Shown in pieces: positions 3,611 through 23,828 of a DNA stretch of 23,867 nt (position 1 is the stretch's first letter; each line of letters begins with the position of its first letter). Source of the DNA: a virus. The stretch covers positions 1 to 23,867 of IMG/VR virus record IMGVR_UViG_3300048586_000397; one strand, written 5' to 3'. The position numbers and the translations under genes are program-made. Under the pieces are notes generated by a model. That model saw nothing but the letters and a program-made list of their open reading frames with translations, was not told where the DNA came from and ran no database searches.

Positions 3611-4064
3611 ACCTGTCAATAGCCGTCGCGTGGGCGAGACACTTTCAAGCGAGACACCAGACGCCAAGACAGATCGCGTCCAGGGCGCTACAGATTGAAT
3701 ATACTCGGGAGAGGAGCGCGCAGGCACAGGCCGCGTCGCTGGCTTCCGGGGTCCAGCGAGGGGACCAGTCGGGGTCCGAACTGCCAAGCCTTTGATACCT
3801 TGGTTCCTTCCTGGGCGTTTCCGTATGCTGGCGGGCGAAGCGCGGCATATCGCCAGCGACAGGGCCGGATTTTTGGGAAGCCACCCCGGCCGGAAGCCAC
3901 CACGCAATCTGAAATAACAACGCAATAACAGCGTCTTGGCTGGTGGACTCCGGGGTGGATACCCTGGACTCCGGAATCCAGCCGGGGCCGGTGGACTCCG
4001 CCATGCCGGAATCCACCGCGCAGCGCTGCTGATTGCTGCCCATTCATCATCGACAGGACTTCTC
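3611..4064. other. 454-nt gap without a convincing gene; several hairpins
   Basis: No ORF here has a good start, ribosome site and protein-like composition; those on both strands look like GC-driven shadows. Structure is present: an inverted repeat GCTGGCG (3827-3833) / CGCCAGC (3851-3857), a short CCAAG/CTTGG hairpin at 3784-3803, a direct repeat GGAAGCCACC at 3876-3885 and 3892-3901, and the GGTGGACTCC repeat cluster listed separately. The gap could be a leader or regulatory region for the methyltransferase pair, a small RNA, or a decayed gene. None of these is proven. Confidence 0.5.
3942..4017. repeat. Inverted/direct repeat cluster upstream of the methyltransferase
   Basis: GGTGGACTCCG occurs at 3942-3952 and 3990-4000. 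A near-perfect palindrome CTGGACTCCGGAATCCAG lies at 3964-3981. CGGAATCCACC at 4007-4017 pairs with the 3990 copy, with one mismatch, to give a hairpin with a six-base loop. The cluster ends 47 nt before the methyltransferase start. It may be an operator, perhaps for autoregulation, or an RNA structure; the repeats are seen directly and the role is inference. Confidence 0.6.
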
Positions 4065-5390
4065 ATGACTCTCGCCTTCGCCCCCGAGCGGATCGAGCAG
4101 TGGCCGCTTGCGCGCCTGCAGCCCTACGCGAAGAACGCGAAGCTGCACGGTGCCGACCAGGTCGCGAAGCTCGCCGCCAGTATGGCCGAGTTCGGCTGGA
4201 CCGTGCCCTGCCTTGTGGGCGAGGACGGCGAGCTGATCGCGGGCCATGGCCGGGTGCTGGCCGCGACGCAGCTGGGGCTGACCGAGGCCCCGGTGATCGT
4301 GCTCGGCCATCTGACCGAGGCGCAGCGGCGGGCCTATCGGATCGCGGACAACAAGCTGACCGAACTCGGCAGCTGGGACGAGGCGCTGCTGTCGGCGGAA
4401 CTGAACGAACTGCTGGCCGAGGATTTCGATCTGTCTCTGGTCGGATTTTCCGACGGCGAACTCGACAAGCTTCTGGCCTTCGTGCCGGAGAGCGATGGCG
4501 AGGATGCTGGCGCCGGGGGCTCGGTGCCGCCGGTGACCATCCCCGAACCGCCGCGCAACCCGGCGTCGCGGACCGGCGATCTCTGGATCCTCGGCGACCA
4601 CCGCCTCCTCTGCGGCGACAGCACCAGCGCGGCCGATGTGCGCCGCCTGATGAACGGCGAGCGGGCGGTGCTCTTCGCGACCGACCCGCCTTACCTCGTC
4701 GACTACGACGGCTCGAACCACCCGACGCGGAACAAGGATTGGAGCCAGTCCTACGGCGTGACCTGGGACGACAGTTCACAGGGCGCCGAACTCTACGACG
4801 GCTTCATCGCCGCCGCCGTGGCCGAGGCGATCACCGAGGATGCCGCCTGGTATTGCTGGCACGCCTCGCGCCGCCAGGCGATGCTGGAAGCCTGCTGGGA
4901 AAAGGCCGGGGCCTTCGTCCATCAGCAGATCATCTGGGTGAAGGATCGCGGCGTCCTGACCCGGTCGCATTATCTCTGGAAGCACGAGCCCTGCTTCATG
5001 GGCTGGAGGCGCCCGAACCGCCCGCCGAAGGTGGCCGAGCAGACGCTGCCCTCGACATGGGAAATGCCGAGTTTCGCCAAGGACGAGCGCCCCGACCACC
5101 CGACGCCAAAACCGCTGGACGCGTTCGGGATCCCGATGCGTCAGCATGTGGCGCGTGGCGGTCTCTGCTACGAGCCGTTCTCGGGCTCGGGTTCGCAGAT
5201 CATGGCGGGCGAGGCCAATGGCCGCCGCGTCTTCGCGATGGAGATCAGCCCGGCTTACGTCGATGTCGCCGTGGAGCGCTGGCAGGCGGACACGTGGCGC
5301 GAGGCGATCCTCGATGGCGATGGCCGGAGCTTCGCAGCCGTAAGGGCCGAGCGGCTGGGCGAGGACACAGACACCGACGCTGCCGCCTGA
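4065..5390 (+). CDS. ParB-domain N6/N4 DNA methyltransferase (phage orphan type)
   Basis: This 441-aa protein joins an N-terminal ParB/Srx-like nuclease-fold domain (about residues 10-110, with AGHGRVLAA and YRIADNKLTELG motifs) to an amino-methyltransferase domain. The catalytic motif IV DPPY is near residue 207 and the SAM-binding motif EPFSGSGS near residue 370, the order typical of the beta class. It transfers a methyl group from SAM to adenine N6 or cytosine N4. The start at 4065 follows AGGA at 4054-4057; an in-frame upstream start at 3936 would run through the hairpin cluster and is rejected. Its stop overlaps the start of the C5-methyltransferase gene. No restriction enzyme is adjacent, so anti-restriction or regulatory methylation is likelier than a restriction-modification pair. 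Target sequence is unknown. Confidence 0.9.
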   Translation: MTLAFAPERIEQWPLARLQPYAKNAKLHGADQVAKLAASMAEFGWTVPCLVGEDGELIAGHGRVLAATQLGLTEAPVIVLGHLTEAQRRAYRIADNKLTELGSWDEALLSAELNELLAEDFDLSLVGFSDGELDKLLAFVPESDGEDAGAGGSVPPVTIPEPPRNPASRTGDLWILGDHRLLCGDSTSAADVRRLMNGERAVLFATDPPYLVDYDGSNHPTRNKDWSQSYGVTWDDSSQGAELYDGFIAAAVAEAITEDAAWYCWHASRRQAMLEACWEKAGAFVHQQIIWVKDRGVLTRSHYLWKHEPCFMGWRRPNRPPKVAEQTLPSTWEMPSFAKDERPDHPTPKPLDAFGIPMRQHVARGGLCYEPFSGSGSQIMAGEANGRRVFAMEISPAYVDVAVERWQADTWREAILDGDGRSFAAVRAERLGEDTDTDAAA

Positions 5391-6406
5391 TGGCCGTCTA
5401 TTACAACGATTCCGACCCCGCGGCCTGTGCCTGGCTGCGGGACCTCATCGCCGCCGGCCACCTTCCGGCTGGCGAGGTGGACGAACGATCCATTCTCGAC
5501 GTGGAGCCGTCCGACCTGCGCGGCTTCGCGCAATGTCATTTCTTCGCCGGGATCGGCGGTTGGCCCTACGCACTGCGCCTCGCTGGCGTGGCCGAGGACC
5601 GGCCGGTCTGGACCGGATCGCCGCCCTGCCAGCCCTTCAGCCAGGCCGGGAAACGCAAGGGACAGGACGATGACCGCCATCTCGCCCCCGCTTTCCTGCG
5701 CCTCGTTGCCGCCTGCCGCCCGGAACTCGTCTTCGGCGAGCAGGTTGCCAGCGCGGCGGTGCTCGGACCATCTGGCCGAACGGTTGGAACGACGGCTGAA
5801 GGTGCGGCTGGCTGGGCGTGGTTCGACGCTCTGGCGGCTGACCTGGAAGCGGCATCTTACGCCGTCGCGGCGGCCGATCTGCCGGCTGCGGGCATCGGCG
5901 CTCCGCATATCCGCCAGCGGCTGTTCTTCGGCGCCGTCGCCCTCGGGCCAACACATGGCGGGCTGGGCCACGGCCTCGGCGCGGGATTACAAGGATGGAT
6001 CGGAATGTCCGGCCGTTCCGATCAACGCGCTGCTGGGCCGTCAGGTCTGGCTGGCGGGTTGGCCGACAGCGATGGCGGGCTCGCCCGCGACGGAGCGATA
6101 CAACGCCGCCGGCAACACCGATGCGAGCCGCAGGACGGTGAAGCTGGTGGATTGGTCGAAGGCGCTGACCCCGCCGGGACCGGCACGACGGACGGCGTCT
6201 GGCGAGATCCGGACTGGCTCCTCTGCCGCGATGACCGCTGGCGGCCCGTTGAGCCCGGAACATTCCCGCTGGCTGATGGGGTATCCGGTCGCATGGGGCT
6301 GCTGCGGGGCTACGGCAATGCGATCGTGCCGCCGCTCGCGGCGGAGTTCGTGATCGCGTTTCTGGAGAGCCTGCCGGAGGGGGTGCGATGCAGCAGAGCC
6401 GCCTGA
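5390..6406 (+). CDS. C5-cytosine DNA methyltransferase (Dcm-like, phage)
   Basis: The 338-aa product starts at ATG 5390 on the previous stop (TGATG overlap). Conserved C5-methyltransferase motifs are in order: motif I FFAGIGGW (51-58), motif IV SPPCQPFSQAGKRKGQ with catalytic Cys80, motif VI as GEQVASA, motif VIII as HIRQRLFFG, and motif X GYGNAIVPPLAAEF near the C-terminus. The stretch between VIII and X, where the target-recognition domain lies, is low-complexity and Gly/Arg-rich. The same DNA in the +1 frame encodes another phage-like protein (separate entry). The protein would methylate cytosine C5 using SAM, probably to protect phage DNA. The family call is firm; whether the recognition segment is functional in this frame is less sure. 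Confidence 0.85.
   Translation: MAVYYNDSDPAACAWLRDLIAAGHLPAGEVDERSILDVEPSDLRGFAQCHFFAGIGGWPYALRLAGVAEDRPVWTGSPPCQPFSQAGKRKGQDDDRHLAPAFLRLVAACRPELVFGEQVASAAVLGPSGRTVGTTAEGAAGWAWFDALAADLEAASYAVAAADLPAAGIGAPHIRQRLFFGAVALGPTHGGLGHGLGAGLQGWIGMSGRSDQRAAGPSGLAGGLADSDGGLARDGAIQRRRQHRCEPQDGEAGGLVEGADPAGTGTTDGVWRDPDWLLCRDDRWRPVEPGTFPLADGVSGRMGLLRGYGNAIVPPLAAEFVIAFLESLPEGVRCSRAA
5670..6353 (+). CDS. Possible overlapping gene inside the C5-methyltransferase (+1 frame)
   Basis: A 227-aa reading frame lies wholly inside the C5-methyltransferase gene, shifted +1. ATG 5670 has an AAGGGA ribosome site at 5657-5662. Its product contains segments I recognise as typical of separately annotated phage proteins: AGRGSTLWRLTW, WATASARDYKDG, INALLGRQVWLAGWPTA, YNAAGNTDASRRTVKLV and, near the end, SRWLMGYPVAWGCC. 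This recall could not be checked by a search. GC-rich genes often carry long shadow frames, and database entries could themselves be artefacts, so a real product is unproven. A frameshifted fusion to the upstream methyltransferase half is another possibility. Confidence 0.3.
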   Translation: MTAISPPLSCASLPPAARNSSSASRLPARRCSDHLAERLERRLKVRLAGRGSTLWRLTWKRHLTPSRRPICRLRASALRISASGCSSAPSPSGQHMAGWATASARDYKDGSECPAVPINALLGRQVWLAGWPTAMAGSPATERYNAAGNTDASRRTVKLVDWSKALTPPGPARRTASGEIRTGSSAAMTAGGPLSPEHSRWLMGYPVAWGCCGATAMRSCRRSRRSS

Positions 6407-17784: not shown

Positions 17785-18465
17785 ATGTGTAATTTGTATT
17801 CCCAGACCAAGAGCCAGGACGCCATGCGCCATGTCTTTGACGACATGCGCGGGGATGACGAGGACTTGGTCGATCTGACCGGCAACCTGCCACCCATGAC
17901 CGGAATCTTCCCCGACTATCCCGCGCCGATCATCCGGCACGGGACACAGGGTGGCTGGCAATTGACCATGGCGCGCTGGGGTATGCCGACACCGCAGGTG
18001 TTTCTGGCAGGCAAGCGCACCGATCCGGGCGTCACCAATATTCGCAATGTCGCTTCGGCCCATTGGAGACGCTGGCTCGGGGTGGAGCATCGCTGCCTCG
18101 TCCCCTTCACCAGCTTTTCCGAGATCGACAGCCGCCCGGGCGCACCCCGCAACCATCCGGTTTGGTTCGCGCTTGGCCAGTATCGCCCCCTGGCCTTCTT
18201 CGCGGGCATCCGCACCGAATGGACCTCGGTGCGCAAGCTGAAGGAGGGCGAGGTAACGGCAGAGCTGTTCGGCTTTCTGACCTGCCCACCCAATGCCGAG
18301 GTCGCGAAGATCCATCCCAAGGCGATGCCGGTGATCCTGACCAGGCCCGAGGAGTGGCGGCGCTGGCTGACTGCACCGGTGGCCGAGGCCCTGCCGCTGC
18401 AACGCCCCCTGCCCGACGGTACGCTGCAGATCGTGGCGGAGGGAGTGCGGGAAGATGCGGCCTGA
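17785..18465 (+). CDS. SOS response-associated peptidase (SRAP/YedK/HMCES family)
   Basis: The 226-aa product starts Met-Cys; Cys2 becomes the N-terminal catalytic residue after Met removal and forms a covalent link to abasic sites in single-stranded DNA. Other SRAP active-site positions are visible: Asn34 (LTGNLPP), Glu113 (FTSFSEID) and His177 (KIHPKAMPVIL). The ARWGMPTPQ and TNIRNVAS segments and the LVPFTSFSE strand are typical. It protects abasic sites exposed at forks, which suits a place at the head of a damage-induced operon. Length is normal. It overlaps imuA by 11 nt and is preceded by a LexA box. Family call is firm. Confidence 0.93.
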   Translation: MCNLYSQTKSQDAMRHVFDDMRGDDEDLVDLTGNLPPMTGIFPDYPAPIIRHGTQGGWQLTMARWGMPTPQVFLAGKRTDPGVTNIRNVASAHWRRWLGVEHRCLVPFTSFSEIDSRPGAPRNHPVWFALGQYRPLAFFAGIRTEWTSVRKLKEGEVTAELFGFLTCPPNAEVAKIHPKAMPVILTRPEEWRRWLTAPVAEALPLQRPLPDGTLQIVAEGVREDAA

Positions 18466-19057
18466 GACCTTGCGCCCTGAACTGGCCCACGCCGACGAAT
18501 TCGACCTTTGTGGGCGACGTGTGCATGAAGCCGAAGGCCGCGGTCGCCGAACCTTTGCGCTGTTTCAGGCGGTGCGGCATCCCGGCCCGCTGGTCTGGAT
18601 CCTGCCCGCCCATGTGCCGGAACTGCCGATGCTGCGCGGGTTGCCGAAAGGTGTCGGCGAACGGCTGCACCTGTTCCGCGCCGAGGGCGAGACCGATCTG
18701 CTGTGGTGCATCGAGGAGGCACTGCGCTCGGCTCCCGTCGGCCTTGTCATCGCCGAACCGGAAAAGCCCCTGTCGCTGACCGCCGGGCGTCGCCTGCAAC
18801 TGGCGGCCGAGGCCGGGCGGACCACCGGCCTGATGCTGATCCGCGAAGGCGCGGGCAGCAATGCCACCGAAACGCGCTGGGCCTGTGCCCCCGTAGCAAG
18901 CCCGGCGGCGGACTCGACTCTGCATTGCTGGACCCTTAATAAGAACAAAAAGGGAACTTGCGGAAGTTGGATTGTGAACTGGAATGGCGCGACGGCTGCT
19001 GTCCATCTGGTTTCCGAGGCTGGGCAGCGACATCAGCCTGCGGAACCGCCCGGTTGA
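18455..19057 (+). CDS. imuA: ImuA, RecA-like SOS mutasome accessory protein
   Basis: ATG 18455 lies 11 nt inside the SRAP gene. The 200-aa product has the ImuA pattern: HEAEGRGRRTFALFQAVRHP, PLVWILPAHVPELPML and a RecA-core-like sheet GVGERLHLFRAEGETDLLWC, followed by APVGLVIAEPEKPLSLTAGR. The C-terminus [18 protein letters not shown] is strongly conserved in alphaproteobacterial ImuA. There is no intact Walker A, as usual for this family. It works with ImuB and DnaE2 in damage-induced mutagenesis; its exact job is not settled. The 3' end overlaps imuB by 74 nt in another frame, longer than the other overlaps here. Confidence 0.9.
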   Translation: MRPETLRPELAHADEFDLCGRRVHEAEGRGRRTFALFQAVRHPGPLVWILPAHVPELPMLRGLPKGVGERLHLFRAEGETDLLWCIEEALRSAPVGLVIAEPEKPLSLTAGRRLQLAAEAGRTTGLMLIREGAGSNATETRWACAPVASPAADSTLHCWTLNKNKKGTCGSWIVNWNGATAAVHLVSEAGQRHQPAEPPG

Positions 19058-20483
19058 AGGGCCCCTTGCCCTGAGCCTGCGCTCGGGCAATGCCGATCAT
19101 CTGCATTGCCTGAACCCCGCCGCCACGGCCCGCGGCCTGCATCGCGGCATGGCACTGGCCGATGCCCGCGCGATCTGTCCCGATCTTGCCATCCGCCCCG
19201 CTGATCTGGCGCGTGAGGCGGCGGCGCTGGTGTCCTTGCGCCGCTGGGCCAGCCGCTATGCCCCCATGATTGCCACGGATGGCGCGGACGGTCTTTTGGC
19301 CGATATCTCGGGCGTGCCGCATCTGTTTGGCGGCGAAGCCGATTTGCGCGAGGACTTGCACGCGCGACTGACGCGGGCGGGCCTGCATCCGGAAAGCGCC
19401 ATAGCAGGAACCCGAGGCGCAGCCCATGCGCTGGCTCGTAACGGCGGCGGCATCGTGCCTGACGGGCGACTGATCGAGGGAATCGGTCGCTTGCCGGTGA
19501 CAGCCCTCAGAGCGAATCCTGAAACGGCCGAGGCGCTGGCGCGGGTGGGTCTGGCACGTATTGCCGATTTGGCACATTTGCCGCGCGCGCCTCTGGCCCG
19601 CCGCTTCGGGCAAGGGCTGGTTCTGCGGCTGGATCAGGCGCTCGGGCAGCGGGACGAGCCCGTTGCAGCGGAACCGGACGCCCCGCATTTTGGGGTGCGG
19701 ATGACGCTCCCCGAACCGATCGGGCTGCAATCCGATGTCATGGCGGGGCTGGAGCGCCTGCTGGACCGGCTCTGCGCCAAACTCGCCCAGCATCGGATGG
19801 GCGCACGCCGGGTCCGGTTGGAGCTGCGCCGAGTTGATCGCCAATCTTCACAGGTCGAGATCGGTCTCGCCCGCCCGATGCGCGACGCGGCCCGCATCGT
19901 TGCGCTGTTTGCCAAGGGCGTGGACGAGGTGGATGCCGGTTTCGGCATTGATGCCCTTCGCCTGACTGCCCCGGTGACAGAGGCCCTTGCGCCGGAACAG
20001 ATTGGTGGCGGCCAGGCGATCCGGCACGACGATGCGTTGGCTGATCTTCTGTCCTCTGTCGGCAACCGCATCGGCTTTGACCGGGTGCTGCGGCTGTTGC
20101 CTGCAACCAGCCTGATCCCTGAGCGCAGTTTCCTCTTGGCCCCGGCTGCTTATTCCGCATCCGAACCGATCCCGCATCGCGGGGGGGCGGCGCGGCCGAT
20201 CTCCCTGTTTCCGCCCGAGCCGGTGACCGCCGCCTCGGGCAACCCGCCCGCGAGTTTCCGTTGGCGGCGCATGCGCTTCACCACGCTGCGCGCGCTGGGC
20301 CCAGAACGCATCACGCCGGAATGGTGGTTCGACGATCCCGCCTGGCGGTCGGGCCTGCGCGATTACTGGCGGATCGAAACCCGGGAAGGGCCGCGGCTCT
20401 GGCTGTTTCACACCCCGCAAACCCCGGACTGGCCCGCGCCCGGAGGGGCGCAGAACTGGCACGTACAGGGGGAGTTCGCATGA
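18984..20483 (+). CDS. imuB: ImuB, catalytically dead Y-family polymerase of the SOS mutasome
   Basis: The 499-aa product aligns by eye with Y-family polymerases (palm about 1-160, thumb/HhH about 165-240, little finger about 240-350). The first catalytic strand reads [11 protein letters not shown], with no acidic residue where Pol IV has its metal-binding Asp, and the second site reads [16 protein letters not shown] rather than the usual SxDE. ImuB proteins are known to lack activity and act as scaffolds. A candidate beta-clamp motif ISLF lies at residues 406-409. The C-terminal [20 protein letters not shown] is family-typical and would contact ImuA/DnaE2. ATG 18984 lies within imuA; the stop overlaps dnaE2 (ATGA), indicating tight coupling. 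Confidence 0.93.
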
Positions 20484-23400
20484 TTCCCTACGCCGAACTT
20501 TGCGTCACATCGAACTTCACCTTCCTGACCGGCGCCTCGCATCCAGAGGAACTGGTATCGCGGGCGGCAGAACTGGGGCTGAGTGCCATCGCCATCACCG
20601 ATCGCAATTCGGTGGCAGGCGTGGTGCGGGCCTTCTCCGCGCTGAAGGAACTGGCGCGTCTGCGCGACGAGGCGCGGACCGCGGCGGCAGAGGCGGGCCC
20701 AATCATCCGCTCGCAGCGCGTGACGGACCATTCCAGCCGCCAGACCGTGCCGCATTTCACCGGACAGACTGATGCCCCCGCCATGTCGGACGCGCCGCTG
20801 CCGAAACTGATCGCCGGGGCGCGTCTGGTGCTGACTGACTCCGCCGTGGAATGGCTGGCCCTGCCCACCGATCTTGCCGCCTGGTCGCGCCTGACCCGGC
20901 TTCTGTCGATTGGCAAGCGGCGCGCGGCCAAGGGCGAATGTCACCTGCAACGCGCCGATCTGGTCGAATGGGGCAAGGGCATGGTGCTGATCGCCCTTTC
21001 GCCCGACCCGCTGGACGATCCCGGCCCGAAAAGCACCCGCGGCGATCTTCGCGCCATCGGTCGCGCCTTCCCCGGTCAGTGCTTCCTGGGGGCCGCCCCG
21101 CGCTATGACGGCCGGGATCAGATCCGTTTCGACCGGATCGGCATTCTGGCGCAGGAGGTGAGCCAGCCGATGGTCGCTGTGGGCGATGTGCTGATGCACC
21201 GTTCCGCCCGTCGCCCCCTGGCCGATGTGCTGACCTGCATGCGCCTTGGCTGCACCATCGACGCTATCGGCGAACACCGGCTGGTAAATGGCGAGCGCCG
21301 TCTGAAATCCGGCGCCGAGATGGCGAAGATGTTTCACCGCCACCCCGCCGCGCTGCGCCGCACGCTGGAGATTGCCGACCGTTGCGCCTTTCGCCTCAGC
21401 GACCTGCGTTATCAATATCCCGATGAATCGGAGAACGAGCCAGCGCAGGACCGGCTGGAACGGCTGGCGCGCGAAGGTCTTCACTGGCGCTACCCTTCTG
21501 GTGCGCCGCCAAAGATCGTGCATCGCGTGGAAAAGGAACTGACCCTGATCCGCGAGGTGTACTACGCCCCCTATTTCCTGACCGTCCACGACATCGTGCA
21601 GTTCGCCAGATCGAAGGGCATCCTCTGTCAGGGGCGCGGCTCCGCCGCCAATTCGGTGGTCTGCTATCTTCTGGGCATTACCGAGGTGCCGCCCGAGTCG
21701 ATCACCCTGATCTTCGAGCGTTTCATCTCCAAGGAGCGGGGCGAACCGCCGGATATCGACGTGGATTTCGAACACGAACGCCGCGAGGAGGTGATCCAGT
21801 GGATCTATGCCCGCTATGGCCGCGAGCGTGCCGGCCTGACCGCAACGGTGATCCATTTCCGCAGCCGCGCCGCCATCCGCGAGGTTGGCAAGGTCATGGG
21901 ATTGTCGCAGGACGTGATCGCGCGGCTTTCCGGGCAAATCTGGGGCTGGTCCTCGCCCCCCCCCCGGCGAGGACCGGCTGCGCGATGCGGGCCTATCGCT
22001 TGCCGACCGCCGCGTGCAACTGGCCGTGCGACTGATCGGCGAGATCATCGGCTTTCCTCGCCATCTTTCGCAACACGTAGGCGGCTTTGTTATCACCAAA
22101 GGCCGTCTGGACGAACTTTGCCCAATTGAAAATGCGGCGATGGACGACCGCACCATCATCGAATGGGACAAGGACGACATCGACGCGCTTGGCCTTCTGA
22201 AGGTCGATATTCTGGCGCTTGGCATGCTGACCTGCATTCACAAGGCGTTTGCGCTTCTGGATGAGCATCGCGGGCAGCAGCTGACGCTGGCCAATGTGCC
22301 GCCCGAGGATCCGTCGATCTACGATATGCTCTGCCGCGCCGATGCGATCGGGGTCTTTCAGGTCGAAAGCCGGGCGCAATTGAACTTCCTGCCCCGGATG
22401 CGGCCGCGCAAATTCTATGACCTGGTCTGCGAGGTCGCCATCGTCCGCCCCGGCCCGATTCAGGGCGGCATGGTGCATCCCTTCATCAACCGCCGCATGG
22501 GGCGCGAAAAGGTCGAAGATCTCGGTCCCGCGATGATGGAGGTTCTGGGCCGCACCTATGGTGTGCCGCTGTTTCAGGAACAGGCGATGCAAATCGCCGT
22601 TGTCGCGGCAGGCTTCACCCCGTCCGAGGCTGACCGCCTGCGTCGGTCGCTTGCCACCTTCAAACGCATGGGCACCATCGGTTCGTTCCGCGACCGCTTT
22701 GTCAGCGGAATGCTCGCGCGGGGTTATGACGCCGATTTTGCGGCGCGCTGCTTTGCCCAGATCGAGGGGTTCGGCAGCTATGGTTTTCCCGAGAGCCACG
22801 CCGCCAGCTTTGCGCGGCTGGTCTATATTTCCGCCTGGCTGAAATGCCACCATCAGGCGGTCTTCACCTGCGCGCTTCTGAATTCGCAGCCGATGGGCTT
22901 CTATGCACCTGCACAGCTGGTCCGCGACGCCCGCGATCATGGAGTGGAGGTGCGGCCCATTTCGGTCAACCACTCGTTCTGGGACTGCACGTTGGAACCG
23001 CGCCCCGATGGGGCGCTGGCCCTGCGGCTCGGCTTCCGGCAGATCAAGGGGATGAGGGAAGAGGACGCCATCTGGATCGCAGCCGCGCGCGGTAACGGCT
23101 ATCCCGATGTCGAAAGCCTGTGGCGCCGGGCGGGCGTGCACGCCGATGCGCTGGAACGGCTCGCCGAGGCTGATGCTTTTGCCGCCATCGGTCTCAATCG
23201 CCGAGACTCTCTGTGGGCAGCCAAGGCGCTGAAAGCCCCTGCGCCGCTGCCCCTCTTTGGCTCCGACGGCGAGGGAGCTGCCGAACCCGACGTCAAGCTG
23301 CCCCAGATGACCCTGGGTCAGGAGGTGATCGAGGATTACCTGTCGCTGCGGCTCAGTCTTCGCGCCCATCCGATGGAGCTGTTGCGACCGCGCCTGACCG

Positions 23401-23828
23401 AAAGCCTGGCCCATGATCGCCTGCCACAGGCCAGTGGCCGCATCACAGTCACCGGCCTTGTCATCACCCGGCAGCGCCCCGGCACGGCGTCGGGCGTCAT
23501 TTTCCTCACTCTGGAGGACGAGACCGGCACAGCCAATGTCGTGGTCTGGAAGAAGGTCTACGAGACCTTTCGCAAGGCGGTGATCGCCGGGCGGCTCGTG
23601 AGCGTGACCGGCCGGATCGAGCGCGATGGCCCGGTCACCCATCTGATCGCCGAGAGGGTCGAGGATGTTTCCCCTCTGCTGGCCACTCTGGGCCGCCCCG
23701 TCCTGATCCCGCCCAACGACGGTCGCGCCGATGAAACCAGGCGCCCGACTGGCGGCAGCAGGAGACCAACAGCGCGCCATCCCCGCGAACAGGCACGGAA
23801 GCTGTTTCCGAGTCGGGATTTCCATTGA
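20480..23828 (+). pseudogene. dnaE2: Error-prone DNA polymerase DnaE2, split by a +1 frameshift in a C10 tract
   Basis: The first part (from ATG 20480) has the PHP domain ([20 protein letters not shown]) and the polymerase palm with catalytic Asp425 and Asp427 in [10 protein letters not shown]. At ten consecutive C residues (21956-21965) the frame changes; as written, translation ends at 22129 after 549 aa. The second frame continues seamlessly ([20 protein letters not shown], then [17 protein letters not shown]), carries the third catalytic Asp region LLKVDILALGML, the fingers, and a C-terminal OB fold (ITVTGLVITRQRPGTASGV). Removing one C gives 1,115 aa, a normal DnaE2 length. The polymerase would do the lesion bypass with ImuA/ImuB. 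Sequencing error, true null or slippage cannot be told apart here. Confidence 0.9.
21956..21965 (+). repeat. C10 homopolymer at the dnaE2 frameshift
   Basis: Ten consecutive C follow TGGTCCTCG. Nine C would keep the polymerase in frame (WSSPPP then GEDRL). Long C tracts are prone to polymerase slippage and to sequencing miscalls. Confidence 0.95.

Follow-up and report, generated by a model that had tools for sequence, protein, structure and literature searches.

A probable two-polypeptide cytosine-C5 DNA methyltransferase of phages and prophages, with one subunit nested in the gene of the other

The IMG/VR virus record analysed here over its whole length of 23,867 bases (the window) carries a cytosine-C5 DNA methyltransferase gene (alpha, frame 0, plus strand, positions 5390 to 6406, 338 aa) inside which lies a second long reading frame of the same strand (beta, +1 frame, 5670 to 6353, 227 aa). 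Does this DNA encode two proteins, and what would the second one contribute? To our knowledge, long same-strand dual coding has rarely been documented in bacteria. An earlier note, made from the letters of this DNA, proposed dual coding or, alternatively, a product of frameshifting in which the recognition domain is exchanged. The first of these proposals is borne out by what we computed: both frames are under selection, they are obligatorily paired in whichever direction they are searched for, the methyltransferase motifs are placed across the two frames, and the +1 start and its ribosome-binding site are conserved. Real dual coding of the overlap is strongly supported, and the locus very probably specifies a nested two-polypeptide cytosine-C5 DNA methyltransferase resembling M.EcoHK31I, with a probable orphan, anti-restriction use.

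Both translations were searched against protein databases, as the earlier note had advised. Alpha, whose start we set at MAVYYNDSDP (5390), the family N-terminus, while the mechanical ORF begins farther upstream, matches Pfam PF00145 (E 1.8e-12) and the phage family phrog_363 (1e-72); it has the catalytic domain with PCQ and the fold of the C5 cytosine DNA methyltransferase superfamily. Beta matches phrog_31772 (1e-27) and phrog_1008 (3e-12), both named 'DNA methyltransferase', in agreement with the earlier note, which placed its segments in many separately annotated phage proteins. These phage families stand in the database as separate methyltransferase families rather than as the two frames of one gene. 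Beta has no match in Pfam or NCBIfam, and sequence and profile searches of the PDB gave no meaningful match and no solved homologue. The following features read from the letters are present: the PCQ of catalytic motif IV (Cys80, 5624 to 5632, aligned to M.HhaI) and motif X (GYGNAIVPPLAAEF, 6308 to 6349) in frame 0, and the +1 reading frame with its ATG, an AAGGGA site and all four quoted peptides.

Codon-position variation was measured in 63 close homologues, and overlap-aware dN estimates were made on 56 representatives with a site counting simplified from published methods for overlapping genes. Positions 5390 to 5734 are constrained in frame 0 only and show the pattern of a normal gene, the frame-0 third position being the most variable (0.17-0.26); the beta frame in 5390 to 5668, outside the overlap, has a dNN/dNS of 1.06. 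Between 5960 and 6109 the pattern is flipped, with variation of 0.23-0.27 at the frame-0 first position (the third position of beta) and of 0.03-0.05 at the frame-0 third position (the second of beta). The overlap thus contains an internal control, a stretch in which only the nested frame is constrained: over 5960 to 6193, the variable recognition-like region of beta and a neutral linker in frame 0, dNN/dNS is 0.26 (0.15-0.39) for beta and dNN/dSN is 1.11 (0.70-1.75) for alpha. The comparison of synonymous variation in both frames, also proposed in the earlier note, detects, over this segment, purifying selection in the +1 frame alone, and selection confined to the methyltransferase frame, named there as a refutation, was not found. 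Over 5810 to 6355 as a whole, the ratio is 0.36 (0.25-0.50) for beta, 0.46 (0.33-0.64) for alpha and 2.66 for the +2 control frame.

On either side of the flipped segment, variation is low at every codon position, as predicted for double coding. This holds for 5810 to 5884 (0.033/0.041/0.064), which encodes the WFD..ADLE region of alpha and the GSTLWRLTWK hairpin of beta, and for 6260 to 6310 (roughly 6200 to 6310), in line with the earlier impression that both frames look family-typical especially around 6250 to 6340. The ratios of beta at these double-coded ends alone are 0.73 and 0.47, with wide intervals that reach 1 and no significance, so that for these ends it is the low variation, whatever the codon position, that speaks for double constraint. 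In distant clades both flanks are conserved and the middle has diverged beyond alignment, as expected for an exchangeable recognition region, and one small group outside the close homologues displays the +1 codon-position pattern as well. In the group to which the window belongs, alpha carries, within 5735 to 5809, a 17-residue insertion that seems to part its GEQV motif from the first helix of beta, as though it eased the overlap.

How widespread is the pair? A tblastn search of 50,697 phage records found beta in 188 and alpha in 285, some of the latter probably being ordinary methyltransferases. Both frames are annotated as overlapping genes in Escherichia phages K1G and K1ind2 and in Xanthomonas phage PhiXhv-28, the +1 frame alone in PMG1, vB_VIPECOMC04 and Cr-LKS3, and frame 0 alone in other phages. 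The 'Mte8-like' name used in K1 phages is perhaps, we presume, the UniProt mnemonic for EcoHK31I. Scans of virus and genome collections added hundreds of loci, mainly from Proteobacteria, with further ones in Desulfovibrio and relatives, a cyanophage, and single genomes labelled Nitrospira, Leptospiraceae and Phycisphaerales. Alpha was matched in 406 of 408 loci, and beta lay at +1 in every one of these 406. Because a +1 profile might echo a conserved frame 0, we also retrieved loci with beta peptides only, and alpha was found at -1, the expected frame, in 80 of 80.

An unbiased count of interruptions was anchored on the N- and C-terminal parts of alpha, which lie in one frame in all 395 complete loci. 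Both frames are fully open in 352 of them; in most of the remaining 43, a frame simply reaches its natural end close to the 3' end. Breaks in the interior are few and affect alpha in L010/L145, L335 and L204, and beta in one contig only (L075/L111); apart from the latter, +1 stops, which the earlier note had cited as evidence that would count against dual coding, were not found in homologues. At position 2971 of L010, a near-identical relative (window position 6140), one change is nonsense in the alpha linker and synonymous in beta. When frame 0 was recoded with the codon usage of the genes themselves, 434 +1-frame stops were expected for 93 diverse loci and none was observed, a zero that is partly so by construction; the recoding simulations predict roughly 3 to 9 stops in the beta frame of each locus. 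As the homologues are related, simulations and bootstraps overstate independence, and these statistical values are to be taken as guides. No single-frame relative combining recognition region, motif IX and catalytic part occurs among the collected loci. An E. coli prophage copy (L439, 2483 to 3652) is listed in RefSeq as two partial pseudogenes, yet both of its frames are open; a small duplication seems to part motif IX from motif X in this copy.

The start of beta is itself conserved. Its ATG (5670 to 5672) requires that Asp94 of alpha be encoded by GAT, which is the case in 54 of 55 close homologues, against 626 (44%) of all 1425 Asp codons. The likely ribosome-binding site, AAGGGA (5657 to 5662), is encoded by K-G codons of alpha and is kept together with this ATG in close homologues. 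Among 197 diverse N-terminal sequences, a start with a Shine-Dalgarno (SD) sequence was found 97 times at alpha codon 92 (34.5 expected from recoding) and 51 times at codon 93 (29.4 expected). A second and stronger site is located at alpha codon 37 (ATG with SD in 93, 10.6 expected; SD of at least 5 bases in 57, 3.8 expected), an excess which suggests that many relatives may start beta earlier, at this codon; the window locus has no start site there. Such a site (e.g. AAGGAG...ATG) is seen in L352, L402 and L149, and a few relatives of this kind have later +1 stops. In the window, the first ~30 residues of beta show no constraint, and no structure is predicted up to residue 27. Judging from these signals, beta is most likely made by internal initiation and not by frameshifting.

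What each protein would contribute can be approached through the C5-methyltransferase motifs. The earlier note credited frame 0 with the complete set, but alpha contains motifs I-VIII in its N-terminal part and motif X at its C-terminal end, and lacks motif IX. Alpha aligns with M.HhaI across motifs IV-VIII, and motif X forms its end. In the classical C5 enzymes encoded by the same genomes, motif X is preceded at a short distance by motif IX (R.LTP.E.ARLQGFP), whereas alpha has GKWRPVEPGTFPLA in that place. A motif IX-like segment lies in beta (GPLSPEHSRWLMGYP, 6243 to 6287): LSPEHSRWLMGYP (LNPAHSRWLMGLP in most) is nearly invariant among 91 sequences and ends at 6287, about where the motif X region of alpha begins. 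The best match of a motif IX profile falls on this SRWL segment of beta in 55 of the 91 sequences, with weak scores of which few exceed those of their own shuffles; the profile never picks out a segment in alpha.

The AlphaFold model of alpha has a mostly confident catalytic domain (residues 1-190), a disordered linker (residues 189-258, 5954 to 6163, pLDDT <50) that cannot be aligned among diverse homologues, and a confident motif X helix (pLDDT about 90). The linker is disordered where frame 0 is neutral. The best PDB matches of this model in Foldseek include M.HhaI, M.HaeIII and DNMTs; in alignments and model alike, alpha has neither the target recognition domain (TRD) nor the motif IX of a single-chain enzyme. 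Beta modelled alone reached a pLDDT of 64 with no trusted fold match. GnsA, the top VIA-align row (Z 4.1), covers 54 residues only and was rejected. Five rows from phage records were left out of the structure-prediction alignments.

Among known enzymes, the closest parallel is in motif layout. The M.EcoHK31I type is defined by a small polypeptide nested in another frame; in 1995, Lee, Kam and Shaw reportedly described the coding sequence of the small EcoHK31I polypeptide as lying within the large gene, in a different frame, and the two polypeptides are said to have about 309 and 176 aa. In M.EcoHK31I (E. coli, YGGCCR), the larger polypeptide contains motifs I-VIII, motif X and a predicted TRD, and the smaller one contains motif IX only (PMC3404938). 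Alpha has the same motif content as this large subunit, and the beta segment LSPEHSRWLMGYP, nearly invariant and weakly scored by the profile, is rightly placed to correspond to the motif IX of the small one; the nesting, too, is matched by a selected +1 frame within the alpha gene in 406/406 loci. The two differ in that M.EcoHK31I belongs to a restriction-modification system, whereas no restriction enzyme is adjacent to the window locus, and in that its TRD is predicted in the large subunit, whereas the recognition-like region is here selected in the frame of the small one. M.AquI similarly has motifs I-VIII in one polypeptide but is split differently, with motifs IX and X together in the second (PMC3404938), while motif X of the window locus is in alpha. 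M.HhaI and M.HaeIII share fold and catalytic motifs with the first 190 residues of alpha, but hold recognition domain, motif IX and motif X in one chain. By this analogy of motif layout, the locus most likely works like EcoHK31I.

Three other explanations have to be weighed against this reading. Could the +1 reading frame be untranslated, its apparent conservation reflecting that of frame 0 in G+C-rich DNA where stops are rare? The overlap is about 70% G+C and frame 0 is strongly conserved at both of its ends, as this would require, but between 5960 and 6193 it is the +1 frame that is conserved, with its own third position free, while frame 0 is not. Moreover, both frames are also open in loci of only 51-54% G+C, and the +2 frame, although placed equally, is interrupted by stops in 395 of 395 complete loci. 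The codon-position pattern already refutes an echo of frame 0 for 5960 to 6193, dNN/dNS, recoding simulation and interruption count reject chance or base composition, and we give this explanation virtually no credence. A programmed frameshift, by which ribosomes in frame 0 would slip to +1 after motif VIII and so join the recognition region to the catalytic part in one polypeptide, would accord with the lack of constraint on the first 30 residues of beta, as though these were not a true N-terminus. Such a product would nevertheless stop at 6353 and lack motif X, barring a second shift in the opposite direction; frame 0 is open through the linker in almost all of the 395 loci, which would be pointless if the product had left that frame, and beta has a conserved start codon and SD. 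We consider frameshifting most improbable, and the recognition-domain swap once suggested on that basis is not needed, since a separate start exists for the +1 frame and motif X lies in frame 0 again.

Alternatively, beta may be real but no subunit: an independent phage protein, for instance a regulator or an anti-restriction factor, overprinted on a self-sufficient methyltransferase. Its lack of a solved homologue and of a confident fold leaves room for this, but a self-sufficient alpha is difficult to reconcile with the absence from it of motif IX and of any ordered recognition domain, or with a motif IX-like segment of beta just upstream of alpha motif X. The pair never separates (406/406 and 80/80), and both polypeptides of M.EcoHK31I are required, as stated in the title of Lee et al. 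1995, cited in PMC3404938. An independent beta thus appears very unlikely.

We therefore retain the two-subunit methyltransferase. Alpha would bind AdoMet and catalyse the reaction through its motifs I-VIII, to which an unstructured linker connects motif X; beta, presumably translated from the internal ATG 5670 behind AAGGGA, would add the motif IX-like segment missing from alpha, together with the variable recognition-like region. By analogy with M.EcoHK31I, the two probably assemble into one enzyme. Since alpha evolves neutrally over the stretch that matches the recognition region, beta is most likely the subunit that recognises the target. On a broader view, to which we give even chances, the pair would form an old and large phage and prophage family with its specificity subunit lying wholly inside the catalytic gene, where the alpha linker is free, the nested segment is swapped as a target-changing cassette, and new sequence has arisen in each frame by overprinting on the other.

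The neighbourhood bears on the use of such an enzyme. Directly upstream of alpha (3936 to 5390), the window encodes a ParB-like domain fused to an N4/N6 DNA methyltransferase (phrog_498, phrog_620), and a small terminase lies near the alpha gene. A sample of 102 proteins flanking genome homologues includes products of phage replication genes, helicases, integrases and further methyltransferases. In the families listed for these 102 proteins (25 commonest per library), as among the scanned neighbours in the window, we recognised no type II restriction enzyme. With no restriction enzyme adjacent, the likely use would be orphan methylation of phage DNA against host restriction.

Our literature search found no paper presenting the nested alpha/beta pair as a phage family. 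The nested two-subunit kind appears to be known from one enzyme, and its spread and obligatory nature in phages, as well as selection of the variable recognition region in the beta frame, appear to be unreported. Hundreds of loci in phages and prophages, most of them of Proteobacteria, are obligatorily dual-coding, and annotation retains a single frame, distributes the family over unrelated entries or treats the gene as broken. Recoding the codons of the annotated frame for cloning would eliminate beta and, if our reading is correct, yield no activity. The family would also constitute natural split methyltransferases for targeted methylation, an application in which M.EcoHK31I has served before (PMC3439449).

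Finally, the right end of the window contains an error-prone DnaE2-type polymerase gene (DNA_pol3_alpha, finger and HHH domains) split over two frames (20261 to 22129 and 22014 to 23828), through either a frameshift mutation or an assembly error. Beside it are genes for a SRAP-domain protein (17785 to 18465) and an ImuB-like IMS-family polymerase (18984 to 20483), and these three genes would form an SOS mutagenesis cassette, perhaps in the host flank of a prophage.
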